Part shown: positions 1,195 through 25,652 of the stretch, piece after piece
Position numbering within the stretch: position 1 is the first letter of the stretch
How the letters are laid out: each line of letters starts with the position of its first letter
Made by a program: the position numbers and the translations under genes
The notes under the pieces: model-generated
Told to the model about the DNA's origin: nothing
The model's database searches: none
What the model saw: the letters and a program-made list of their open reading frames with translations, nothing else
NCBI GenBank assembly: GCA_024401695.1
Contig: JAKSKN010000012.1
Coordinates: forward strand, 1 to 64,000
Reading direction: 5' to 3'
Length of the DNA: 64,000 bases
Origin: Bacteroidales bacterium
GTDB taxonomy: Bacteria; Bacteroidota; Bacteroidia; Bacteroidales; UBA932

Positions 1195-3206
1195 CAGAAG
1201 GTGCAGAAATAATTGATTGACGGTATGACCGGAATGTGAAGCATAGTTGGAGCATAACTGTACTGTCCGTTCTTGACCTTCAGGATCGCAGCCATCTGGT
1301 TGCCCCGTGCGGTTGCGTTCTGGACGGAGACGTTGACCCCGTCACGGAAGCGTCCGGAATTGTGGATGTTGAAACTTACCGATATGTCAAGCCTGATATA
1401 AGGGGAGAGGTTCTTCGAATTCCTGTCCCCATATTTGACCATAAGTTTCTGGTTCAGGAAGTATACAGAAGAGACAGGCGTATAGGGCAATCCGGAAGCG
1501 AAGATGAAATTGCCGCCGAACTCCCACCTGCCCAGCTTGTAGGACGCAACTGCATTGACTTCGTGCTGACGTTCATATGAAGACGGATAGGTGTAGGGAA
1601 AATCCGGATTGTCGAACCGGCGCAGTGAACGGCCCCAGCTGTAACTGATCCATCCGGTGAGTTTGCCGCTGTTCTTCATCAGTTGGGCTGTGATGCCATA
1701 ATTGTATCCGTCCCCGTTGAGAAGCATATTCTGGAGATTGTAATTGCCGCCTATGATCTCTGACAGGAAGCCGGAATATTCGACCATATTCCACATCCTT
1801 TTCCCGTATGCCTGGAAGTTGACCGAAAGTGCATCGTTCAGCAGATTGACCGTGTAGGACAATGTCCCGAAAAAAGAGGCCTGCGGTTTGGAATATTTTC
1901 CACTGCCGAGCCAGAACTCCACAGGGAAGCCGCTGCTGGTCATTCCTGTCATAAACAGATATTGATGCTTGTAGCCGATATCCAGATTCAACCGGCCACC
2001 TCTGTGGAAATTGTATCCAGCGGACAGTTCCGGGTCGATGCGGGGGAAAATGGTCCCGTCGGAGATGTCTGAGTACAGGCTTGCGGCAAGACCCGGCTTC
2101 AGGGTGAAGTCGCCGGTCTGGAGATGATATGACGACCGTAATGTCGCAAGGACTGCCTGCTGTTTCGAAACCGGAGCCTCTTCCGGACCTGTGGATGACA
2201 GGTCGAGGATATTCTGAGGCTGGATGTCATAGTAGTCCGCTTCGGCGGCAAACTCCCACTCGCGCCACTTCGCCGCACTATGGAGACCTGCATTGACTAT
2301 GTAGTCATCGGCGTGTCCTGAATTGGCCCCCAGCATCAGATCCCCTTCCATAGAATAAGCGCTGGCATAAGCCTGAGATGTCAGATTGAGTTCATCCTTA
2401 TGGTGACGCCAGCGTACGTTGGCGACGGCGCTGCTCCATATTGCTCCGATATTCTCGCTGGCTTTGTCGGCCCCTGCCTTTCCGTCATCCCTTCCGAAGT
2501 AGGCATTGGCGTCAATGGTATTGAACTTGTCAGGAATATAGAGATAACTCGCGTTGATGTCATAGAACTTGTAGTTCATCTCGGCCCCGTCCATTTTCAG
2601 CAGCCCCTTGTAGAATATGTCGATGAAGGAGCGGCGGCCGGAAAGTGTAAGGGAAGATTCCTTCCCGACAGGAAAGGTGAAGGTGGCATATGCCGAGACA
2701 GGTCCCAGGTTGGCTTCACCGTGCAGCGCGTGGCAGAGTGTGTCTGCCGTTTCAAGTCCAAGTTCGCCTCCGATCCTGCGTGACGTCGTGGACGTGCTGA
2801 ACTTGATATTCTTGAAATGTCCTGGATTGAATACGGAAAACAGCCCCAGAATGCGTCCCTGGCCATAAACGGGCACGCCACACAACTTGATGATGCTCTG
2901 GCTGGCCTCACACCCCTGGATCTTCAATCCGCTTTCCCATTCGGAGTTTGTGGCGACGCCTGGCATCGTCTGGACGAATTTCAGAGGGTCGGCAACGCCG
3001 AGCATCTTGGGAAAAGCCTCCAGGGCGGACATCTTGATACTTAGCCCGTTTGCGACGCTGCCATTTATCCCGTTGGATCGCACGTTTGTGGATACCACGA
3101 TGCTGTCCAGCTCAAATACCGACGTGGAATCCGGCAGCACTTGAGAGTATGCTGCCAGAGAGGCCATAAGGCCTGAAATAAACAGTATGAACTTACTTGA
3201 AGACAT
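1194..3206 (-). CDS. TonB-dependent receptor with plug domain
   Basis: This 670-residue protein has a signal peptide (ILFISGLMASLAAYSQ). The plug-like N-terminal part starts around residue 33 (LDSIVVSTNVRSN) and includes FPKMLGVADPLKFVQTMPGV. The rest looks like a beta-barrel, ending with the aromatic C-terminus INYFCTF. It lacks the CarboxypepD-like extension of SusC proteins and is short for a TonB receptor. It should transport an unknown ligand across the outer membrane with energy from TonB. It sits between a small lipoprotein gene (14-nt overlap upstream) and a DUF4249 gene (1-nt overlap downstream), forming a three-gene operon. No iron- or vitamin-specific neighbour reveals the ligand. 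Confidence 0.85.
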   Translation of the reverse strand: MSSSKFILFISGLMASLAAYSQVLPDSTSVFELDSIVVSTNVRSNGINGSVANGLSIKMSALEAFPKMLGVADPLKFVQTMPGVATNSEWESGLKIQGCEASQSIIKLCGVPVYGQGRILGLFSVFNPGHFKNIKFSTSTTSRRIGGELGLETADTLCHALHGEANLGPVSAYATFTFPVGKESSLTLSGRRSFIDIFYKGLLKMDGAEMNYKFYDINASYLYIPDKFNTIDANAYFGRDDGKAGADKASENIGAIWSSAVANVRWRHHKDELNLTSQAYASAYSMEGDLMLGANSGHADDYIVNAGLHSAAKWREWEFAAEADYYDIQPQNILDLSSTGPEEAPVSKQQAVLATLRSSYHLQTGDFTLKPGLAASLYSDISDGTIFPRIDPELSAGYNFHRGGRLNLDIGYKHQYLFMTGMTSSGFPVEFWLGSGKYSKPQASFFGTLSYTVNLLNDALSVNFQAYGKRMWNMVEYSGFLSEIIGGNYNLQNMLLNGDGYNYGITAQLMKNSGKLTGWISYSWGRSLRRFDNPDFPYTYPSSYERQHEVNAVASYKLGRWEFGGNFIFASGLPYTPVSSVYFLNQKLMVKYGDRNSKNLSPYIRLDISVSFNIHNSGRFRDGVNVSVQNATARGNQMAAILKVKNGQYSYAPTMLHIPVIPSINYFCTF

Positions 3207-3849
3207 CAGAGAAGTTCTGTTTCATCAGGTTCGCAAACCCATTGTCGAATATCGTGAAAGTGCGCGGGTCATCATAATAATGCGCAACGAGATATGTGCC
3301 GGTGCTGTAGTCGGTATTCTCGAATTCGTCAAGTGTGAGGTAACCCACGCGGCGCCCTTCGTAAAGCAGGGGAGCTTGAAGGCTGCCTTCAAAGAGAAAA
3401 AACAAGGGGGCGATGACCTTGATTTTTGAAACAGTCAGGCTGGAACTGTCCTGGAGCTCCTTCTTAATTGCAATCTCCGTATCAAAGGCAAGAAGCTTGA
3501 TTTCGAGAGGACGGATATATCCGTTGACCACAACCCAGGTGCTGTCTTCTATTTTGAATGTGGCATCCAGGGCTGGGTCATCTTTGCCTCTGATGTCGAG
3601 TTCGTAATAGATGCCGTCCGGAGCTTTTCCCTTGTATATCCCCTGGGACAGCATCGTAGAGTAGAAATACTCCAAAGTATCGGAAAGGCTTTGCCAGTCC
3701 TTTGACAGAACGTCCGCCAATTCCTTCTCCACCTTCTCCGGGACGGATAACTCCCTTTCCGGAGGAGGCACCGGTTTGTCCAGCCCCTTGCTGCAGGAAA
3801 GGGCCAGGATGATGATGATCGTAGGAATGATTGGAACCGCTCGACTCAT
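3193..3849 (-). CDS. Uncharacterised lipoprotein, first gene of the TonB-receptor operon
   Basis: The protein has 218 residues from the ATG at 3849. An upstream in-frame ATG at 3873 is less likely because a promoter box (TATATTTG) lies between the two. A hydrophobic signal ends in the lipobox ALSC, followed by a proline/glutamate-rich stretch, so it is probably an outer-membrane lipoprotein. The body is acidic and beta-rich (STWVVVNGYIRPLEIKLLAFDTEI). I do not recognise the family. The gene overlaps the TonB receptor start by 14 nt, so the products probably act with the receptor and the DUF4249 protein, for example in ligand capture or plug control. That role is inferred only from position. 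Confidence 0.65.
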   Translation of the reverse strand: MSRAVPIIPTIIIILALSCSKGLDKPVPPPERELSVPEKVEKELADVLSKDWQSLSDTLEYFYSTMLSQGIYKGKAPDGIYYELDIRGKDDPALDATFKIEDSTWVVVNGYIRPLEIKLLAFDTEIAIKKELQDSSSLTVSKIKVIAPLFFLFEGSLQAPLLYEGRRVGYLTLDEFENTDYSTGTYLVAHYYDDPRTFTIFDNGFANLMKQNFSDVFK

Positions 3850-3860
3850 TGGCAAACGTA

Positions 3861-3868
3861 CAAATATA
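3861..3868 (-). promoter_or_regulatory. -7 promoter box TATATTTG of the TonB-receptor operon
   Basis: A perfect match to the Bacteroidetes -7 consensus TAnnTTTG lies 11 nt upstream of the ATG at 3849. Transcription would start only a few bases before that codon, which favours the downstream start for the lipoprotein gene. Confidence 0.6.
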
Positions 3869-3936
3869 AGCATTTTTTGAATGCGAAATCGTTATTTGTC
3901 TATTTCGACGGAGCTGATGGCAGGGGCATTCTGAAG

Positions 3937-17593: not shown

Positions 17594-18736
17594 TTATATT
17601 TCACGTTCTGCTTCGTCTGCTTCTTCCCAGTCTACCACGGCAGGGTCGAAGGTGATCTTGTCAGGAGAATTAGGGTCCACAATGACGGTGTAGTTGTAAA
17701 CCTTGTTCTGTTTCCACTCGTCCAGAGGAGTTGTGGTGCCGGATAACTTGAAGGTGTTGAGCTTGAATTTTTCATTATTGCCTTCGTAGATATCAAGAAT
17801 AGTACCTTTGTCATTGCAGAAATAAATCACATAACTGAGCTCAACTACAGCAGAGTCTGTCAGCTTCTGAGGAAGAACCGACATTCCGCCTTCGATGTTG
17901 AGAAGACTGGATGCTTCAGTGGTTGACAGTTCGCTTTCGGTAGCGCTGTGTTTTGCCCCGATTTTCTGCAAAGCCGTTGAATTTGTATAGAGTCCGCTTC
18001 GGTCGACCGGATCTCCGGTAGTAGTCCAGGCGCCATTAAGCGTTGTATTTGCAGATGCATCGAAAATGAATTTGCCCGTTGTGTATATCTGTTTTATGGA
18101 CATTGACTTGATAAATGCATAGTGCTTTATGTTATCGGTCGATACGTTAGGCTTGAGCTTGGCGTTGAAATTAATCTTTGAGAGCACGTGGTGGAACAGC
18201 ATGGGAACGCCTTCTGTCACGTGTTGCTTGTCCTTGGCGTTGGCGCCTGTCTTGTCTATGGTGATATCTGAAACAAGAAGGTCGTCATCGATGTCAGATT
18301 TTACCTCATAATCCTTTATCTGGAAAAATTGGCTGCGGTCATTCTGATCAGTCATTAGGTAGGCATTACCTCTGCTCGTAGATGCCCAGCCAACGAAGGA
18401 GAGCTTGCCGGTCTTTGGCCAGTAGTACTCTGTTTTCGGGTTCCAGGAATCTTCTTGTTTCTGAACCTCCACATCGTGCATATATTCTACCGCTTCAGCC
18501 AAATCTATATCTTCCCAGCCTTCGTCTCCGGTGTAAAACGCTGTTACTCTGAATGTGCTTACGGGCATCTTCTGGTGTCCGTCAAGATCCGGGTCTGCCT
18601 TTGTCGCATTTTTGTATGTCGCAGCCTCGAAATTGATGAGCTGGTCGGACTCATCATCTGGGGCGCTGGCATTGAACTTCGCACAACCGGTGATTGCGAG
18701 AAGTGCGGCCAGGATTGTGAGTGAATACTTCTTCAT
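17594..18736 (-). CDS. Fimbrillin family protein (380 aa), first gene of an internal transcription unit
   Basis: Lipobox LAITGC (Cys 18) and T-K-A at 45-47. Signatures: YYWPKTGKLSFVGWAS, VPMLFHHVLSKINFNAK and ITFDPAVVDWEEAD. The acidic C-terminal tail (EEADEAEREI) resembles the tail of the DUF5119 protein upstream. Its start lies 7 nt after a TAACTTTG promoter box, and a terminator-like hairpin stands between that box and the preceding gene, so it probably begins its own transcript as well as receiving readthrough. Confidence 0.88.
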   Translation of the reverse strand: MKKYSLTILAALLAITGCAKFNASAPDDESDQLINFEAATYKNATKADPDLDGHQKMPVSTFRVTAFYTGDEGWEDIDLAEAVEYMHDVEVQKQEDSWNPKTEYYWPKTGKLSFVGWASTSRGNAYLMTDQNDRSQFFQIKDYEVKSDIDDDLLVSDITIDKTGANAKDKQHVTEGVPMLFHHVLSKINFNAKLKPNVSTDNIKHYAFIKSMSIKQIYTTGKFIFDASANTTLNGAWTTTGDPVDRSGLYTNSTALQKIGAKHSATESELSTTEASSLLNIEGGMSVLPQKLTDSAVVELSYVIYFCNDKGTILDIYEGNNEKFKLNTFKLSGTTTPLDEWKQNKVYNYTVIVDPNSPDKITFDPAVVDWEEADEAEREI

Positions 18737-18743
18737 AATAACT

Positions 18744-18789
18744 CAAAGTTAAAATAAATAATCGGTACTCGAGTTTTTAAATCGTAAAA
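18744..18789 (-). promoter_or_regulatory. Internal fimbrillin promoter with upstream box II
   Basis: On the minus strand TAACTTTG (18744-18751) matches the TAnnTTTG consensus 7 nt before the ATG at 18736. Twenty-four nt further upstream, 18776-18789 reads TTTAAATCGTAAAA on the plus strand. It differs by one base from the box at 24316-24329 and by two from the one at 21261-21274. Box I of those two promoters is absent here. Confidence 0.55.
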
Positions 18790-18797
18790 ACTTGTGA

Positions 18798-18823
18798 CCA
18801 GAAGCGCGGTCAAGCGCTTCTGG
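18798..18823 (-). terminator. Intra-operon terminator/attenuator hairpin
   Basis: A perfect 10-bp stem, CCAGAAGCGC (18798-18807) with GCGCTTCTGG (18814-18823), encloses a 6-nt loop. On the minus strand TCACAAGTTTTT follows. It lies 25 nt beyond the stop of the 410-residue fimbrillin gene and just before the promoter of the next one, so it probably limits readthrough into the distal genes. Confidence 0.6.
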
Positions 18824-18848
18824 CCTAAAAGACTATTGGCTGATATTA

Positions 18849-20081
18849 TTATTCGCCATGGTCTGTGTCCTTGTAGATAATCTCAGGGTCAGCATCAACC
18901 TTGCTCCAGTCTTCCATACAAGGGTCGAAGTAAATCTCGCCTTCGAACGGATCGATGATGAAACTGTAGTTGTAAACTGTGTTGATCTTCCACTCATCAA
19001 TGGCGGTGTCACCAGTTGAAGTTGTTGTTGTTTTGAACTCACCGAGCTTCATGGTGAATGCAGGATGGCTGTCAGCAGCACCGTCGTATGCGGTCTTGCT
19101 GATGACCTTGCCTGTCTTGTCGTAAGCGTAAACAGTGAACTTGACAGTGATTGTGGCATCAGTGTTAGGATTGCTGTTAGTGACAGGGAGCTCCTGAGGG
19201 AGTACGTAGTACTCTTCCTCGAATTTTGTCCAACCTTCACCTGTAAGACCGTTATCCGTGACTTCAGTACCTATAACAAAGCCTTCGCCTTTTGCAGGAG
19301 AGTACTTCATATCTACAATCTTGCCGCTGTTATCCTTGTCTCCTGATGGAGTCCAGGCATATTCGTTCGAAGAGTCGAGCGCGAGCTTACCCTTGCCATA
19401 AATGTTTGAAATGGAAATCTCATCGATGACAGCTGAGAAATAGACGTCGCCAACCTTGACTACCTTATTAGTTGAATCGTAGTTCTTTTCGTACAGTTTT
19501 GCAGAGAACTTCACCTTTGCAAGTTCGTGATGGAAAAGAAGCGGAACACCATCGGTGAAGTGCTTGTCTGTATCTTTATCGCAGTTCTGGTCAAGGGTCT
19601 GGGCAAGCATAAGGTCTTCCGATACGGTGGCAACTTTCTGAGTAGCGTATGGAACGGTTACCGCGTACTCGTCGAAAGTGAAGCCATTGGTGGCGTCATA
19701 CGTGGCCTTGCCTGCAGGATATACTGCGTAGAAAGAAAGCATACCGGTCTTTGGCCAGTAATAAGTGCCGTTCTGTGTCTTCCATACCCATTCAGTAGGT
19801 TCGTCAGATGTCTCTGAATTAGCCACAATGTCATTGAAATAAAGGAACTTCGAAGTACCGCTGGCGGCAATTTCGCCATCAGTGAAATAGGCAAGGATGT
19901 CAAACTGGGCATCCTTAGGTAAAGCGATGTGCTCGTGGTCAGCCTTCGTCTGAGAGACGTAGCTGAGAGCCTGGAAGGAGATAGGGGTCTCCTCATCCTG
20001 AGCACTCTGGTCGAGATTGACCTTGCTGCAACCTACGATTGCGAGGGTTGCGAGCGCGATGATTGATAAATACTTTTTCAT
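18849..20081 (-). CDS. Fimbrillin family protein (410 aa)
   Basis: Lipobox LAIVGC (Cys 18) and T-K-A at 45-47 (YVSQTKAD). Signatures: YYWPKTGMLSFYAVYPAG, VPLLFHHELAKVKFSAK and IYFDPCMEDWSKV. The cysteine in the last signature is unusual for the array. It is the second fimbrillin gene after the strong candidate promoter at 21209, and a hairpin follows its stop, so it and the 346-residue gene could form the most highly expressed pair. Product: lipidated pilin precursor of the Mfa-like superfamily. Confidence 0.88.
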   Translation of the reverse strand: MKKYLSIIALATLAIVGCSKVNLDQSAQDEETPISFQALSYVSQTKADHEHIALPKDAQFDILAYFTDGEIAASGTSKFLYFNDIVANSETSDEPTEWVWKTQNGTYYWPKTGMLSFYAVYPAGKATYDATNGFTFDEYAVTVPYATQKVATVSEDLMLAQTLDQNCDKDTDKHFTDGVPLLFHHELAKVKFSAKLYEKNYDSTNKVVKVGDVYFSAVIDEISISNIYGKGKLALDSSNEYAWTPSGDKDNSGKIVDMKYSPAKGEGFVIGTEVTDNGLTGEGWTKFEEEYYVLPQELPVTNSNPNTDATITVKFTVYAYDKTGKVISKTAYDGAADSHPAFTMKLGEFKTTTTSTGDTAIDEWKINTVYNYSFIIDPFEGEIYFDPCMEDWSKVDADPEIIYKDTDHGE

Positions 20082-20142: not shown

Positions 20143-21183
20143 TTACATTGAAGCCTGTGAGCTGTTGGTCATCCAGTTGACTACTGAAGGAGCGAATGTG
20201 ATGACGTCGTTGCTGAGAGGGTTGATGGTTATGTTGTAGATGTAGCAGTAACCGCTTGCCCAGGCTGTGATGTCGTTGATGCTGAGGGAAACGGTCTCTG
20301 TGATTGTGGTGGTGTCAAGTTCGGTCTCACCTTTCTTGGTTACGATTGTGAAGTTGACGGTGAGCTCGATATTTCCGTTGGAGTTGCTGAGGCTCTGTGG
20401 AAGAACGATCGCGTTGCTGCCGAGAGTAGCGAACTCGGTGGTGAGTTCGGTCTCTTCGCTGCTGACGTTGATGACCTGTGCGTTTTTCTGGTTGCTCCAG
20501 CTGATCTTGTTGTTGGTGCTGTTCCAGTTGAGGTCTGCAGTGTTGCATACGCTGGAAACCTTGGCTGAGTTTACAGTAACCTCGAAGTCAAGTCCGTTTG
20601 CGCTGAGGGTCTTGGCCTTGAAGTTGAACATCAGCTGTGAGAGAGCGTGGCGGAAGAGAACGCTTACCTTACCGTTGCTCTGGGTCTTGTTGGCTGCGAG
20701 GTCAGCGATGAGGAGGTCGGTGCCGTCGTTTACGTAACCGGTCTTGTTGAGGAGGTTCTCTCTGGTGTTGCCGATTGCGAGGTCTGCAGATACAGGTGAG
20801 TAGCTTGCGAAAGAAAGCTTGCCGCTCTTAGGCCAGCAGTAATCTACTGCGGTGCTCCACTCTGAACCCTTCTTGGAAACTTCGTCACCGTTGATGTACT
20901 TTACCATATCGGAAATCTCGAGGCTGCTGTTCCAGTCGAAGTCGCCGGTATAGAAAGCGTAGGTGCGGAAGCTTGACTCAAGTTCTGAGTAGTCAGACTT
21001 TGTCTGCTGTGAGTAGAGATTGGCGTCGAAGGAGATGGCCTTCTGTGCAGGGGTCTTGATTTCTGACTTTGAAGAAGATGAAGAAGAAGTCTGAACTGAA
21101 GGAACCTCGACGTCAACCTTGGAGCAGCCTGCGAGGACTGCTGTCAGGGTGAGGAGGAGAGTTATGTTCAAATTCTTTTTCAT
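20143..21183 (-). CDS. Fimbrillin family protein (346 aa), promoter-proximal subunit
   Basis: This is the shortest fimbrillin of the array. Lipobox AVLAGC (Cys 20), then a serine-rich linker (TSSSSSSKSE, 32-41) not seen in the others, and T-K-S at 61-63 in place of T-K-A. Signatures: CWPKSGKLSFASYSP, VLFRHALSQLMFNFK and ITFAPSVVNW. Codon use looks more uniform than in the downstream genes. It directly follows a candidate promoter with two upstream boxes, so it is the best candidate for the major shaft subunit; that is inference from position only. Confidence 0.87.
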   Translation of the reverse strand: MKKNLNITLLLTLTAVLAGCSKVDVEVPSVQTSSSSSSKSEIKTPAQKAISFDANLYSQQTKSDYSELESSFRTYAFYTGDFDWNSSLEISDMVKYINGDEVSKKGSEWSTAVDYCWPKSGKLSFASYSPVSADLAIGNTRENLLNKTGYVNDGTDLLIADLAANKTQSNGKVSVLFRHALSQLMFNFKAKTLSANGLDFEVTVNSAKVSSVCNTADLNWNSTNNKISWSNQKNAQVINVSSEETELTTEFATLGSNAIVLPQSLSNSNGNIELTVNFTIVTKKGETELDTTTITETVSLSINDITAWASGYCYIYNITINPLSNDVITFAPSVVNWMTNSSQASM

Positions 21184-21208: not shown

Positions 21209-21274
21209 CAAAGATACGGCGCATTTATATATATAAATTGTCTATTTGTCAGTAGTGTTTTTCAAAACGTAAAA
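21209..21274 (-). promoter_or_regulatory. Main fimbrillin promoter with box I and box II
   Basis: On the minus strand TATCTTTG (21209-21216) is a perfect -7 box 25 nt before the ATG at 21183. Read on the plus strand, 20 nt separate it from box I, ATTGTCTATTTGT (21237-21249). Exactly 11 nt then lead to box II, TTCAAAACGTAAAA (21261-21274). The same order and spacing occur at 24263-24329. Box I covers the -33 region; box II would be an activator or repressor site. Confidence 0.65.
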
Positions 21275-21347
21275 ACCTATGCGTTTAAAAGGTTAAAACG
21301 TCAATGAAATTGTGATTTTTACAAAAATCCATTTTCAAAACGTAAAT
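21259..21347. repeat. Helically phased AAAACGT repeats upstream of the main fimbrillin promoter
   Basis: The 15-nt sequence TTTTCAAAACGTAAA occurs exactly at 21259-21273 and 21332-21346. A partial copy (TTAAAACGTCAA) starts at 21293. The AAAACGT cores start at 21264, 21295 and 21337, spacings of 31 and 42 nt, close to three and four helical turns. This suggests several sites for one DNA-binding protein on the same face of the helix in the 178-nt gap between the DUF5119 and fimbrillin genes. Confidence 0.6.
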
Positions 21348-21361
21348 AACGCGGATTTTGA

Positions 21362-22468
21362 CTAAATGACAACCTCTCCTTCCTGGTCCTCCCAGTCTTC
21401 GACTTCGGGGTTGAATCCACCGCCTCCGCCGCCCTGCGGATCGACCTCCGGCTTAGGGATGTCGATGATCGCATCAATGAGCAACCAGTGGCGTTTGAGC
21501 GCGTTTTCGGTCATAAATATGTCGTTCATATTTATCTCGAAGTCGAACGCCTTGCCGTCGGTGCGGATTACGTTGAAGGTGACGCGGAGATCGGAGTCTT
21601 CAGGGGCGATATCATCATCGGCCTTTGTTCCGTCGCCTTTGCGGCTGTCCGCGGCCCCGTTGTCTATATTGTGATAAATCTTTCCGAAGGTGTTGAAGGT
21701 GGTGCAGAGGACGTCCTTGTTCTCTTCCCGGATGTTGAGGTCCTGGCTCTTCTGCATATTGAAATAAACGGCGCTGGGATTGTCAACCTCGCGCTCTGCA
21801 AGACCGAAGTAGTTGGACGGGCTCATACCCGACAGGATGGCGCTTGCGTCGCTCGCGTATTGCGCGCCCTGTATGCGCACCTGTATATAATATGTATCGA
21901 CGATGGTGGTGGCCTCTGTCTCAATGACGAGGAGGCCGGTATGAGGGACTATCTCGAGGCCTATGTCCCTGGCCACGATCACGTGGTCCGGCTCATAGAG
22001 GACATCGGTGTCTTCTAGTCCCTTGTATTTCGCTTTGATTGAAGCGGGCACCTCGCTGGTGTAGGCTTCAAGCGTGGTGATGTCGTTTTCCCCTCGTATG
22101 AACGTGTCCGGCGTGTCGAAGTTGTAGCAGATCATATCGTACTTGCCGACACTTATGTTCACGTCGCCACCCAGGCACGGGACGCGCTTGCCCTCGTCAT
22201 CGTATCTCTCGGTCTTTTCAGAAAGGAAGGCCTGGCTCACGAGCTTGTGGCTGTCGGGGTCATAGAACATAACGCGTATCATATCCGTCTCGATCTTCGG
22301 GACAGGTATGAGCTCGTTGTAGACGCTGACGTTGACGTTAAGCACGGCTTTCAGCTCGACGACCACTGCCAGCTCGATGGATGGACTCGGGTCTTCAAGC
22401 GGTCGCCATTCGCAGGACGTCGCCAGAAGCGCAAGCGCTGAAAATACTATGAGGGGTCTTCTGAACAT
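21362..22468 (-). CDS. DUF5119-type lipoprotein of the fimbrial locus
   Basis: This 368-residue protein has a lipobox (LALLATSC, Cys 19), then EWRPLEDP. It matches the DUF5119 group that accompanies DUF3575/DUF3868 proteins in Bacteroidales fimbrial loci (VMFYDPDSHKLVSQAF; YDMICYNFDT). The C-terminus is striking: six glycines, then FNPEVEDWEDQEGEVVI, which imitates the terminal FDPxVxDW motif of the fimbrillins. There is no T-K-A motif. Its start overlaps the stop of the DUF3575 gene by one base, so both are co-expressed. An assembly, capping or anchoring role is inferred. Confidence 0.75.
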   Translation of the reverse strand: MFRRPLIVFSALALLATSCEWRPLEDPSPSIELAVVVELKAVLNVNVSVYNELIPVPKIETDMIRVMFYDPDSHKLVSQAFLSEKTERYDDEGKRVPCLGGDVNISVGKYDMICYNFDTPDTFIRGENDITTLEAYTSEVPASIKAKYKGLEDTDVLYEPDHVIVARDIGLEIVPHTGLLVIETEATTIVDTYYIQVRIQGAQYASDASAILSGMSPSNYFGLAEREVDNPSAVYFNMQKSQDLNIREENKDVLCTTFNTFGKIYHNIDNGAADSRKGDGTKADDDIAPEDSDLRVTFNVIRTDGKAFDFEINMNDIFMTENALKRHWLLIDAIIDIPKPEVDPQGGGGGGFNPEVEDWEDQEGEVVI

Positions 22469-24258
22469 TATTTGTCCTCGGAATGCGTCTCGGCATATCT
22501 TGCTGCACGCTTGGTCGCGAAATTGATCGGTATCACGAGGCTGACCTTAAGCTTGGTAGGTCCGAAGTATGTAACCTGGCCGGCGTTGTAAGGGTCGCGG
22601 ATAAGGCAGCTGTAGTCTGCCGCAGGCTGATAGTGCTGGTAGTTCGCACGGAGCCAGCCGGCGCTGAGGCTGAATTCCATATTGCCCCAGTGCTTCTTCT
22701 TGCCGAGAGGGATTACGAATCCGCCTGACAGACCGGCGCTGAGGTAGGTGGCCTGATAGCAGAGGTCCTTGTCCCACTGGATATCACCCTTGCCGCTCAT
22801 TCCGTAAGGGCCTACGAAGAATCCGAGCAGTTTCCTGTCGTCGTTGCCCCATTTCTTGAACCAGAAACGCGGCTCTACGCCGATCTCCCAGTTCTGGAGG
22901 GCATATTTGTTCTTCTGGAATTCCCACCAAGGGAACACGTCTTCGACCATAATGCTGAAGCGCTTGCCGATAGGAACCTCTATCTCGGCGTTGACCATTG
23001 TGACAACGTCGTAAAGAAGGTTGGTCTTGAGCGCGAAGATGGTCTCCTTGGCTTTCTTCTTGACTTCCTCGACAGGTTCTTCAATAGGAGCGACCTGCTC
23101 GACTACGACCTGTTCTTCCTTGACAACCGGGGTCTCCACAGGGACTATGACCACTTCCTGCGGCTCCGGTTCTTCAACCTGCTGCGGCTTGAGATAGAAC
23201 GAGAGCATCGTGGATCCGCGGAGTGAAGGGTAGTGGTTCTTCAGGACGTACTGGTAGACGTTGCCCACCATAGGGTCGTTAGGTATCTTCTTGAGGAGCG
23301 CCTTCTTGGTGTTGGCGTCGACGTAGTTGTTCTCGATGATGTCGAGGAGCTGGTACCTGGTCGAATTCGTGATGTTGCGGTCTTGTTCGACAAGCTGGCG
23401 GAGTCCGTCCCAGGATTCGCCGCGGCCTTCGTGGCTGATGCGGTTCCTGAGTTCAGGATATTGCTTGAGGATGAACCACTTGGAATCGATGGCGCGCTTT
23501 TCGGCGAGGAAGAGGTTGTGCTCGACGGTTCCTTCCGGAGACGCGTAGGAAACTACGAGGACAGAATCGATGTTGTCGATGCCGACTTCGTCGATGGCTC
23601 TGTCGAGGGCACGGAGGACGTACCGGTTGCTCATATAGTCGGGATCGAAGGTGTAGTCGTTGACCTTGTAGTCGAGGTGGGCCTCGAGGGCGTAAACGTC
23701 AGGGTTGTCGGTGCGGACGTCCTTGAACATGTCGCCGGTGGTGGAGGTTATGTCGAGAGGGAGGGACTTGACAGTCCTTCTCCTTGATGCCTGATGGCGT
23801 GACGGGGTGGATGGGGTGTTGGCGAGCGTGAAGGTCTTGCGCTCCATCTCATTCTTGAGACGGACGGTGACGATGGAGACATCGCCTTCGCGGCTGCTTC
23901 TCCTGGTCTCGTAAATCACGCGGCCCTGGAGTTTCGGAAATTTTTCTGCGATGAGCCATTTGGTGTCGACTGCGCGCTTCTCGGCAAGGGCGAGGTCGTT
24001 TTCCTCGCTGGACGTCGGGGTGACATAGGTCACGATGCGCACGAAATCGATGTTATCTTCGCCGGCGCTCTGGATTGCGCGGGTGATTGACCTTGAAGCT
24101 GTGGCATTCTCACCGAAACCGGCATCGAAGCTATACTGGTTCTTGCGGTACTGGATGCGGGATTCGGCATTCTGTGCGGATGCCTGAGCAATGTGGCTTT
24201 CTGCTCCGGCCAGGATGGCCAGAGAAAGCAGAAGAAATATTTTGGTCATAGTTTTCAT
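22468..24258 (-). CDS. DUF3575 outer-membrane protein with two OmpA-like repeat domains
   Basis: This 596-residue protein has a signal peptide and two repeats of an OmpA-related module: about 50-130 (VRIVTYVTPTSSEENDLALAEKRAVDTKW) and about 230-355 (VLVVSYASPEGTVEHNLFLAEKRAIDSKW, split here only by eye). A Glu/Val/Pro-rich linker spans about 356-405. The C-terminal DUF3575 beta-barrel-like domain (FALKTNLLYDVVTMVNAEIE) reaches about 590. Such proteins occur with fimbrillin clusters and probably form the outer-membrane base of the fibre. A -7 box only 4 nt before this ATG raises the possibility that the ATG at 24249 is used instead. Confidence 0.8.
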   Translation of the reverse strand: MKTMTKIFLLLSLAILAGAESHIAQASAQNAESRIQYRKNQYSFDAGFGENATASRSITRAIQSAGEDNIDFVRIVTYVTPTSSEENDLALAEKRAVDTKWLIAEKFPKLQGRVIYETRRSSREGDVSIVTVRLKNEMERKTFTLANTPSTPSRHQASRRRTVKSLPLDITSTTGDMFKDVRTDNPDVYALEAHLDYKVNDYTFDPDYMSNRYVLRALDRAIDEVGIDNIDSVLVVSYASPEGTVEHNLFLAEKRAIDSKWFILKQYPELRNRISHEGRGESWDGLRQLVEQDRNITNSTRYQLLDIIENNYVDANTKKALLKKIPNDPMVGNVYQYVLKNHYPSLRGSTMLSFYLKPQQVEEPEPQEVVIVPVETPVVKEEQVVVEQVAPIEEPVEEVKKKAKETIFALKTNLLYDVVTMVNAEIEVPIGKRFSIMVEDVFPWWEFQKNKYALQNWEIGVEPRFWFKKWGNDDRKLLGFFVGPYGMSGKGDIQWDKDLCYQATYLSAGLSGGFVIPLGKKKHWGNMEFSLSAGWLRANYQHYQPAADYSCLIRDPYNAGQVTYFGPTKLKVSLVIPINFATKRAARYAETHSEDK

Positions 24259-24262
24259 GCTG

Positions 24263-24329
24263 CAAATATACTTCGTATAATCTCCAAAAAGATTGTCAGT
24301 TTGAAATAAATTCAGTTCAAATCGTAAAA
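24263..24329 (-). promoter_or_regulatory. Promoter of the DUF3575-DUF5119 unit with box I and box II
   Basis: On the minus strand TATATTTG (24263-24270) matches TAnnTTTG. Read on the plus strand, 21 nt then lead to box I ATTGTCAGTTTGA (24292-24304), and exactly 11 nt to box II TTCAAATCGTAAAA (24316-24329). Order and spacing equal those of the promoter at 21209-21274. The -7 box ends 4 nt before the annotated ATG, so the transcript would be leaderless or start at the next ATG (24249). Confidence 0.65.
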
Positions 24330-24374
24330 TTTCCCTTGCGCGCCCGATATTTTCACGGGCAAAATGGCGATTTC

Positions 24375-24417
24375 GACAATTTTTATTGTTTGTTTGACAA
24401 TTTTATTGTTTATTTGT
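24375..24417 (+). promoter_or_regulatory. Tandem 20-21-nt operator-like repeats before the AraC-type regulator
   Basis: Two head-to-tail copies of GACAATTTT(T)ATTGTTTRTTT lie at 24375-24395 and 24396-24415. Each contains a box I match: ATTGTTTGTTTGA at 24385-24397 and ATTGTTTATTTGT at 24405-24417. AraC-family proteins commonly bind direct repeats spaced by about two helical turns. The second copy overlaps TTTATTTG (24409-24416), a one-mismatch -7 box for the regulator gene, which would fit autoregulation. Confidence 0.5.
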
Positions 24418-24446
24418 ATGTTTTATTATAAAAGACCTATTGTCCC

Positions 24447-25652
24447 ATGTTGAATTTTGCGGCCTTGTTCCTGCCTTGCTTTGTCTGCCTCATCTGGGGT
24501 GGAATGCTGGTGTTCACGCCGCACAGGGGCACGGCGAGGAATGTTTTCATGATCCTGCTGTTCATTTCTGCGGTCTATTTTTTCGTCGATGCCTTCTATG
24601 TCGGGCAGATCGAGAGTGCTTCCGACTATTCACTGCTCGTGCGGCTTGATGCCGTGTCCCAGTTCGTGACGATGGCGCTTATACCGTTTATGGTGCTGTA
24701 CATCATTGTGGCGCAGGGCAAGATGTTCAGCTGGCCGGTAACGTATCTGTCTCTGGTTCCGTGCATTTGCCAGGGTGTCGCTTCTTTTGTCATCTATATG
24801 ATTCTGGGCAATGCCAATGCGGTCGGGTTCCTTCAGGCCTTTGATATGCTCGGGGGCTTCCCTCCGCAATATGACATCCCGATATATCACGCCTATTATG
24901 CCATCAACCACACGATCTACAATGTAGTGCTCGCCGCAGAAGTGCTCGGCGGAATGGGTTATCTGGTATATGTGTTCGTGAGGCGCAAGGACAACAAGGA
25001 GATATCCTCTTTTGTCTCCCTGATGTTTATCCTGCTGGTTATCACGATATTCCGCATCCTTCTCGGCAGATTGTTCCTCATTTCCCACTCCGGTGTGTCT
25101 TCGGTGCTGTCTGCGCTTATGGCTCTCGATATGTTCTTCGCGTGCCACATTGCGGTGGGTATGCGCAGCGTCGAGGGTGACAAGAGGGCCGGCCTCCTGT
25201 CCGACGCCCTGGAGAAAATCAACTCTCCTTTCGTGTCCGACAAGGATGATACCGACCAGCCGGTGGTGCTGGAGTACGCCGCTTCGCATGCTCCGAACGT
25301 GATCCTGGCGCCTACCAAGCCGAAGAACCTTCTGGAATCCTTCATCGTCTATATGGCCAAGGAGCGGCCTTATCTTAATCCGGAACTCACCGTTCAGGAG
25401 GTGTGCGAAGAACTGCATACCAACAGAACGTATATCTCTGAACTTATGTCGGAGAATTTCAAGATGTCGTTCCGCGACTACATCGGTCTCCTGCGCATCA
25501 GTGCGGCAAAGAGGCTTCTCCGTGAGGATTCTACCCGTACCCTTGAAGACATTGCGGCCGATTCCGGCTTTGCCAGCTCTTCCCAGTTCGTGAAGAAATT
25601 CAAGGAACTCACCGGCACCACTCCGCGTGCCTGGCTGGCAGATCAGTCCTAG
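24447..25652 (+). CDS. Membrane-bound AraC-family transcriptional regulator (multi-TM sensor plus HTH)
   Basis: In this 401-residue protein, about seven hydrophobic segments occupy residues 4-23, 32-52, 73-90, 96-120, 150-177, 188-213 and 215-238. A soluble linker precedes a C-terminal AraC-type double helix-turn-helix at about 295-398 (LTVQEVCEELHTNRTYISELM; LEDIAADSGFASSSQFVKKFKELTGTTPRAW). It is a one-component membrane regulator: the membrane part would sense a signal and the C-terminus bind DNA near the membrane. It is divergent from the fimbrillin locus, with tandem repeats in the shared intergenic region, so it is the prime candidate controller of that locus. The signal is unknown. Confidence 0.85.
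   Translation: MLNFAALFLPCFVCLIWGGMLVFTPHRGTARNVFMILLFISAVYFFVDAFYVGQIESASDYSLLVRLDAVSQFVTMALIPFMVLYIIVAQGKMFSWPVTYLSLVPCICQGVASFVIYMILGNANAVGFLQAFDMLGGFPPQYDIPIYHAYYAINHTIYNVVLAAEVLGGMGYLVYVFVRRKDNKEISSFVSLMFILLVITIFRILLGRLFLISHSGVSSVLSALMALDMFFACHIAVGMRSVEGDKRAGLLSDALEKINSPFVSDKDDTDQPVVLEYAASHAPNVILAPTKPKNLLESFIVYMAKERPYLNPELTVQEVCEELHTNRTYISELMSENFKMSFRDYIGLLRISAAKRLLREDSTRTLEDIAADSGFASSSQFVKKFKELTGTTPRAWLADQS

Follow-up and report, generated by a model that had tools for sequence, protein, structure and literature searches.

Our analysis of a 64,000-nucleotide (nt) stretch of DNA (the window) from the genome of an uncultured Bacteroidales bacterium (G000; 2,650,927 bases, or 2.65 Mb) points to two short elements in its fimbrial locus, box I and box II, as the predicted sites of one AraC-type factor that coordinates the fimbrial transcription units. 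We consider this reading rather probable, with the protein encoded at positions 24447 to 25652 as the most likely factor. Since the same elements recur before these units, mostly at the same distance, and are kept in a sister species (G304), several fimbrial genes probably constitute a single switchable unit under the control of the putatively membrane-bound regulator encoded alongside.

Both boxes are found before unit A, which starts with a DUF3575 gene, and before unit B, which starts with the first fimbrillin-like gene. Rereading of the letters bore out the positions, order, and spacing that a preliminary description of this DNA had given for the -7 box, box I, and box II at both promoters. 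On the plus strand, region A comprises CAAATATA (24263 to 24270), 21 nt, ATTGTCAGTTTGA (24292 to 24304), 11 nt, and TTCAAATCGTAAAA (24316 to 24329), and region B comprises CAAAGATA (21209 to 21216), 20 nt, ATTGTCTATTTGT (21237 to 21249), 11 nt, and TTCAAAACGTAAAA (21261 to 21274). In the direction of transcription, i.e., on the minus strand, both promoters follow the scheme TTTTACGNTTTGAA, 11 nt, NCAAANNGACAAT, 20 to 21 nt, TAnnTTTG. Read in this way, unit A has TTTTACGATTTGAA as box II, 45 nt from the -7 box, TCAAACTGACAAT as box I, occupying the place of the -33 element, and TATATTTG as the -7 box, 4 nt from the first ATG of the DUF3575 gene; the corresponding elements of unit B are TTTTACGTTTTGAA, 44 nt from the -7 box, ACAAATAGACAAT, and TATCTTTG. 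The two 11-nt spacers share 3 of 11 letters and are thus unrelated, as the preliminary description had held for the sequences between the boxes. It had overlooked a distal second box II in region B (21334 to 21347, minus strand), which has one mismatch, lies 73 nt from the first, and belongs to a 15-nt direct repeat, as well as the copy of box II that precedes a third unit, at 18776. When box II is reversed, it matches box I at 8 to 10 of 14 letters in four copies, and of 64,666 intergenic 14-mers 0.4% match at 9 letters or more and 0.1% at 10 or more; as register and direction were chosen by eye, this at most suggests that the two boxes are facing half-sites.

The spaced pair is rare. Its presence at many unrelated promoters had been named beforehand as the result that would speak against a fimbrial regulon, and scans of the source genome and of 400 sampled genomes of the genus came out in favor of the regulon. 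In the source genome, the pair occurs at up to three mismatches only at these two places, and a reversed-pattern control gave no match. In the 400 genomes, a looser pair (ATTGTYNNTTTG, N12, TTYAAANCGTAAA; at most three mismatches) gave 32 matches in 29 genomes. The four perfect ones are the two of the source genome and two of the sister species, and the other 28, each at exactly three mismatches, are about as many as the matches of the reversed control (33). As for box II alone, a scan of 250 genomes gave 10 exact matches of the 14-mer, spread over 9 genomes and including two in the source genome, versus 29 for its reversed control, so that box II is not in general use in the genus. With no mismatch allowed, the 13-letter form TTYAAANCGTAAA occurs five times in G000 (control, 0), seven times in G304 (control, 0), twice in G383 (control, 1), and not at all in G218 (control, 1).

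These scans bear on the possibility that the boxes reflect nothing but a chance likeness of AT-rich promoter regions. In its favor, the best ungapped alignment of the whole A and B intergenic regions scores 18.6, inside the range of 300 shuffles (mean, 13.5; standard deviation, 1.8; maximum, 23.4); with a looser mismatch penalty, the best alignment falls in a different register from the box pair. The genome and genus scans, the conservation described below, and the equal spacing at three units of G304 nevertheless reduce the probability of this explanation to an almost negligible one. Chance is in practice excluded for box II, an exclusion that is weaker for box I alone.

Box II marks further genes of the same kind. 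At up to one mismatch, it occurs at six places in the source genome (reversed control, three), four of which (24316, 21261, 21334, and 18776) lie in the fimbrial locus, all intergenic and in one orientation. The copy at 18776 to 18789 (minus strand, TTTTACGATTTAAA) precedes a third fimbrillin-like unit, unit C, which has its own -7 box (18744 to 18751, minus strand, TAACTTTG), conserved in G304. A terminator-like hairpin (18790 to 18826), rich in G+C and with a minus-strand run of T, directly adjoins this box II and is unchanged in G304. The two remaining copies are located at C12:239912 and C65:38978. The copy on contig C12 forms one arm of a perfect inverted repeat of box II (L097 9885-9926; arms of 12 nt, center of 18 nt), located 228 nt before a gene that matches Mfa_like_1 (1.6e-8), with an HTH_AraC gene next in line. 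Because the nearest TAnnTTTG is about 183 nt away, the geometry at this locus differs from that of A and B. An OmpA-type gene and genes for two large coiled-coil proteins lie downstream. One site is thus found before several units of one function, is rare elsewhere, and is conserved, with the copy on C65 as the exception.

The comparison with the sister species agrees with the reading of the boxes as functional sites. Over 9 kb, the window shares 86.9% identity with contig JAUNNZ010000050.1, whose coordinates identify it with G304:C36; the regulators of the two are 88 to 89% identical, and 195 of 596 third codon positions of the DUF3575 gene have changed. Among the 58 fixed positions of the boxes and -7 boxes in intergenic regions A and B, a single one has changed, versus 44 of the 308 remaining positions of these regions (Fisher P = 0.003). 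The fixed positions of box I are all kept (0 of 10 changed at both A and B), as are those of box II at A (0 of 13) and in the distal copy at 21334 (0 of 13), with 1 of 13 changed at B. The -7 box of A reads TATCTTTG in G304, a change at a free base, and the change in box I of A likewise falls on a free base; the -7 box of B is identical. Box II of B reads TTTAAATCGTAAAA in G304, the form found at 18776 in the window, and the G304 counterpart of 18776 reads TTCAAATCGTAAAA. Neither 11-nt spacer has changed (0 of 22), which looks as if a complex covered the stretch; region B is, however, conserved as a whole, with 13 of 178 positions changed versus 32 of 188 in region A. The inverted repeat on C12 is also unchanged in G304 (C47:46851), where the two other copies outside the fimbrial locus lie in a reading frame (C16:19256) and before a transposase gene (C21:11608).

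Spacing is kept as well. From box II to the -7 box, the distances at A, B, and C are 45, 44, and 24 nt in the window and 45, 44, and 45 nt in G304, so that unit C of the window is shorter by about two helical turns. The claim that the elements stand at the same distances accordingly holds for A and B and extends to C only in the sister species. In G304, box II of unit C has a mixed form, ATTGTTGATTTGAA, next to it in the same direction. The G304 region (L172; G304:C47, near 66701) has about 80 nt more than the window between the unit C gene and the -7 box, with a half-site-like word in the presumed leader, and its box II region exceeds that of the window by 21 nt.

The copies in the locus also speak to the idea that the boxes are remnants of recombination or of mobile repeats, or duplicated promoter pieces without a regulatory role. 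Inversion does occur at promoters of fimbrial and capsule genes in Bacteroidales, and region B does contain the 15-nt direct repeat; four copies in one orientation, however, cannot bound an inversion. A search for inverted repeats gave none in regions B and C and one imperfect pair, joining GACAAT words, in region A. With the spacers unrelated and the boxes more conserved than their surroundings, we regard this explanation as extremely improbable, and inversion or a mobile repeat was rejected on the orientation of the copies and the lack of inverted repeats flanking the promoters. We also rejected a leader RNA element: no Rfam family reached its gathering score between 16000 and 26000, and the boxes lie upstream of the -7 boxes.

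A -7 box of the Bacteroidetes primary-sigma type, TAnnTTTG, is found at A, B, and C in both species. For comparison, we sampled 170 intergenic regions from 20 stretches of the source genome (398,000 of 2,650,927 bases) and the window, in which 65 TAnnTTTG sites precede genes. The following base is C in 46%, and a TTG 22 to 23 nt upstream is only weakly frequent (15 of 65 sites). A count of TAnnTTTG in sense and antisense gave a weak difference (63 versus 50). At A and B, there is no TTTG or TTG near -33, and the GACAAT of box I stands there instead; the missing TTG fits promoters that need an activator. The location of box I at the -33 place, together with the frequency of box I-like words, could mean that the boxes are ordinary core promoter or upstream elements in use at many genes. 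Given that the pair and box II are rare in the source genome and that the sampled promoters have merely a weak TTG at this place, we consider a generic core promoter very improbable and rejected it.

The proximity of the -7 box of A to the first ATG means that the message of unit A may be almost leaderless. The same distance of 4 nt separates a TATATTTG box from a start codon both at the DUF3575 gene (24256 to 24270) and at the GTG start of the G383 regulator (L143 9765-9779), and such boxes may indicate nearly leaderless messages or other starts. For Bacteroides thetaiotaomicron, the consulted part of one report gives only about 3.7% of 5' leaders as shorter than 10 nt (PMC7366714). Elsewhere in the window (3862 to 3906, minus strand), a TATATTTG box precedes the gene at 3193 to 3873; the word TTTGTCTATTTC, which resembles box I, lies about 25 nt upstream of it, unaccompanied by box II.

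The best candidate reader of the boxes, on the basis of gene order and sequence comparison, is the protein encoded at 24447 to 25652 on the plus strand, divergently to unit A. It has seven hydrophobic segments by hydropathy and a C-terminal AraC-type helix-turn-helix (HTH) domain, with Pfam matches above the cutoff to HTH_18 (1.2e-18) and HTH_AraC (9.5e-14); in NCBIfam, it has only AraC-type matches far below the cutoff. In a tree of 26 regulators, it falls outside a clade (split, 100/99) of the 14 regulators from fimbrial loci of relatives in the genus and groups with those of G383, G187, G112 (C81), and G218 (96/93). Although DUF3575 matches had served to select the loci, three of the 14 belong to loci without a called DUF3575 gene, and one is 6.8 kb distant. 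The regulator genes of G383, G187, and G112 adjoin pyruvate phosphate dikinase genes. Outside the G000/G304 pair, ten homolog regions were available, and in G383 a perfect box II lies 27 nt before the -7 box of the regulator gene itself; a perfect box II among ten such regions arose in 3 of 300 shuffled sets. This copy before a kin's own gene, together with the divergent position of 24447, makes the window protein the likeliest reader.

It is also possible, if rather doubtful in our view, that the boxes are operators of the fimbrial set read by another factor, such as the small AraC-type protein at the C12 locus, or that the factor represses. An HTH_AraC gene does adjoin the C12 repeat, box II also precedes other AraC-type genes in G383 (a second one, on C15) and in G166, and the regulator query has nine matches in the source genome. 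Set against these points are the divergent arrangement of 24447 and unit A and the box II in the promoter of its G383 kin.

Upstream of the regulator gene, a block at 24365 to 24428 (plus strand) is conserved in the sister species (3 of 64 positions changed, versus 20 in the neighboring 35) and contains two GACAATTTT words 21 nt apart. We do not claim autoregulation through these GACAAT words, which may be core promoter. Many fimbrial loci of the genus (L065 to L082) have an AraC-type gene beside a lipoprotein-like gene and a gene for a small receiver-like protein (MDLSRYNVLAVDDVP...), both of which are absent beside 24447.

Several observations weigh against a single factor encoded at 24447 acting on both boxes. 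Box I is absent at unit C and at the C12 locus, and box I alone is common, with 65 places in the window at up to two mismatches versus 55 expected. As the whole of region B is conserved, less can be read from the conservation of its boxes than from that of the boxes in A. The one-mismatch copy on C65, which has lost the CG, lies 22 nt before a Peptidase_C13-type gene and may be an exception to the regulon or due to chance. In G253, G127, and G166, box II precedes unrelated genes. With respect to the regulator, G383 is the only one of the ten homologs with a perfect box II; G218 has a copy with two mismatches in almost the same position, which is not significant by itself (38 of 300 shuffles), and the other eight have three to five mismatches. 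The nearer kin lack the 13-letter box II genome-wide (G187, 0 versus 0 in the control; G112, 0 versus 2). Finally, no TAnnTTTG lies within 260 nt upstream of the regulator gene in the window, whose nearest box II is the shared one, 131 nt away.

The dedicated fimbrial regulon proposed in the preliminary description stands in part. The set is tied to fimbrial genes, being rare, conserved in G304, and extended by the box II copies at 18776 and on C12; the box I/box II pair is not its unit, as box II occurs without box I at the third unit and at C12. Box II marks the gene set, and box I is present at two promoters only, replacing the -33 element.

The occurrences of box II away from fimbrial genes, in the relatives G383, G166, G253, and G127, are varied. 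Among the eight foreign exact matches, those of L085, L086, L087, and L089 lie inside long reading frames, those of L088 and L090 are intergenic, and in L091 and L092 the match falls within a short frame (110 and 93 amino acids, respectively) that is possibly not a gene. The L088 copy precedes an AraC-type gene without a long N-terminal part, and L091 adjoins a lactate/malate dehydrogenase-type gene. In L090 and L092 (G253 and G127; near 1501 in both), box II precedes the same 243-amino-acid gene, which has no Pfam match and adjoins a gene that we take to be dapF-like; a GTTGATTTGAAAG word lies upstream of box II in L092, in the same direction.

In the mechanism that we infer, the 24447-25652 protein would bind directly to box II (TTTTACGNTTTRAA in the direction of transcription) as its main site, 44 to 45 nt upstream of the -7 box, and box I, in the place of the -33 element and replacing its TTG, would probably hold the second half of a dimer. 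Bound to box II and the near half-site, the factor would touch or recruit RNA polymerase and switch the promoter on, acting as an activator rather than a repressor. A signal received by the membrane part would alter DNA binding, so that the base unit, its DUF5119 partner, and the pilins would be switched together. More tentatively, a membrane-embedded AraC-type regulator of the pyruvate phosphate dikinase-linked lineage may have been recruited to the fimbrial locus, replacing the usual clade. Three pilus transcription units and a distant fimbrillin-like gene might then have acquired its operator, with a membrane signal setting base unit and pilins together. A defined, conserved putative operator, a candidate reader, and three promoters of nearly equal geometry make up a regulator-operator pair that can be tested in a reporter strain, and unit C offers a natural variant, with 45 nt in the sister species and 24 nt, two helical turns less, in the window.

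The genes named here from the three units all lie on the minus strand. Unit A begins with the DUF3575 gene (22468 to 24258), which also has an OmpA match below the cutoff, and a DUF5119 gene (21362 to 22468) comes second, both assigned by Pfam. Unit B begins with a fimbrillin-like gene (20143 to 21183; Mfa_like_1 in Pfam), and its second gene (18849 to 20081) has no Pfam match and is BLAST-similar to the neighboring fimbrillin-like proteins; the first gene of unit C (17594 to 18736) is again an Mfa_like_1 gene in Pfam. NCBIfam gave nothing for the four proteins tried besides the regulator. At its N terminus, the DUF3575 protein is longer by about 195 residues than most relatives, which match from about residue 195, and some relatives show repeated matches in this extra part. 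Among 20 relative loci, 15 have a called DUF5119 gene, followed on the same strand by the next gene at 4 to 109 nt in 11 loci and by an overlapping gene in one; the remaining three show large gaps, partly failures of a crude open reading frame caller, which retains the longest frames and counts some antisense ones as genes. The relative loci yielded no useful set of comparable B promoters.

The preliminary description had taken the element pair to be new, and we likewise found no such pair described in the openly licensed literature, which is weak evidence of absence; matches to a box word concern, in the parts consulted, unrelated work on Epstein-Barr virus. Nor did we find in this literature a DNA site described for the AraC-type proteins beside Bacteroidales fimbrial loci. 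According to the consulted part of one report, mfa1 of Porphyromonas gingivalis is controlled by RprY (PMC9862357). This resembles our case as transcriptional control of a fimbrillin gene in Bacteroidales and differs in its regulator, and that part describes no such boxes. AraC-family regulators altered by bile, with effects on biofilm, are reported in PMC11078008, the consulted part of which draws no link to pili.

At 14 other fimbrial loci of the genus, the regulators resemble that of the window as HTH_AraC proteins of similar length encoded close to DUF3575 or pilin genes, and differ from it in forming another clade (100/99). AraC-type control of fimbriae is familiar in enterobacteria. Like AggR, an enterobacterial fimbrial activator, the window protein is an AraC-type protein tied to fimbrial genes; regulators of the AggR type are, however, soluble and control other fimbriae, and the comparison applies to the HTH domain only. 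E. coli AraC at araI1/I2 is an AraC-family activator with paired half-sites. It belongs to a phylum with another promoter type, its sites are arranged head to tail, whereas our candidate sites would face each other, and the window regulator has in addition a predicted membrane domain and a putative operator. The two systems share a C-terminal AraC-type HTH domain; both also have two sites, candidate ones in the window, about two helical turns apart, the nearer of which lies at the -35 or -33 element.

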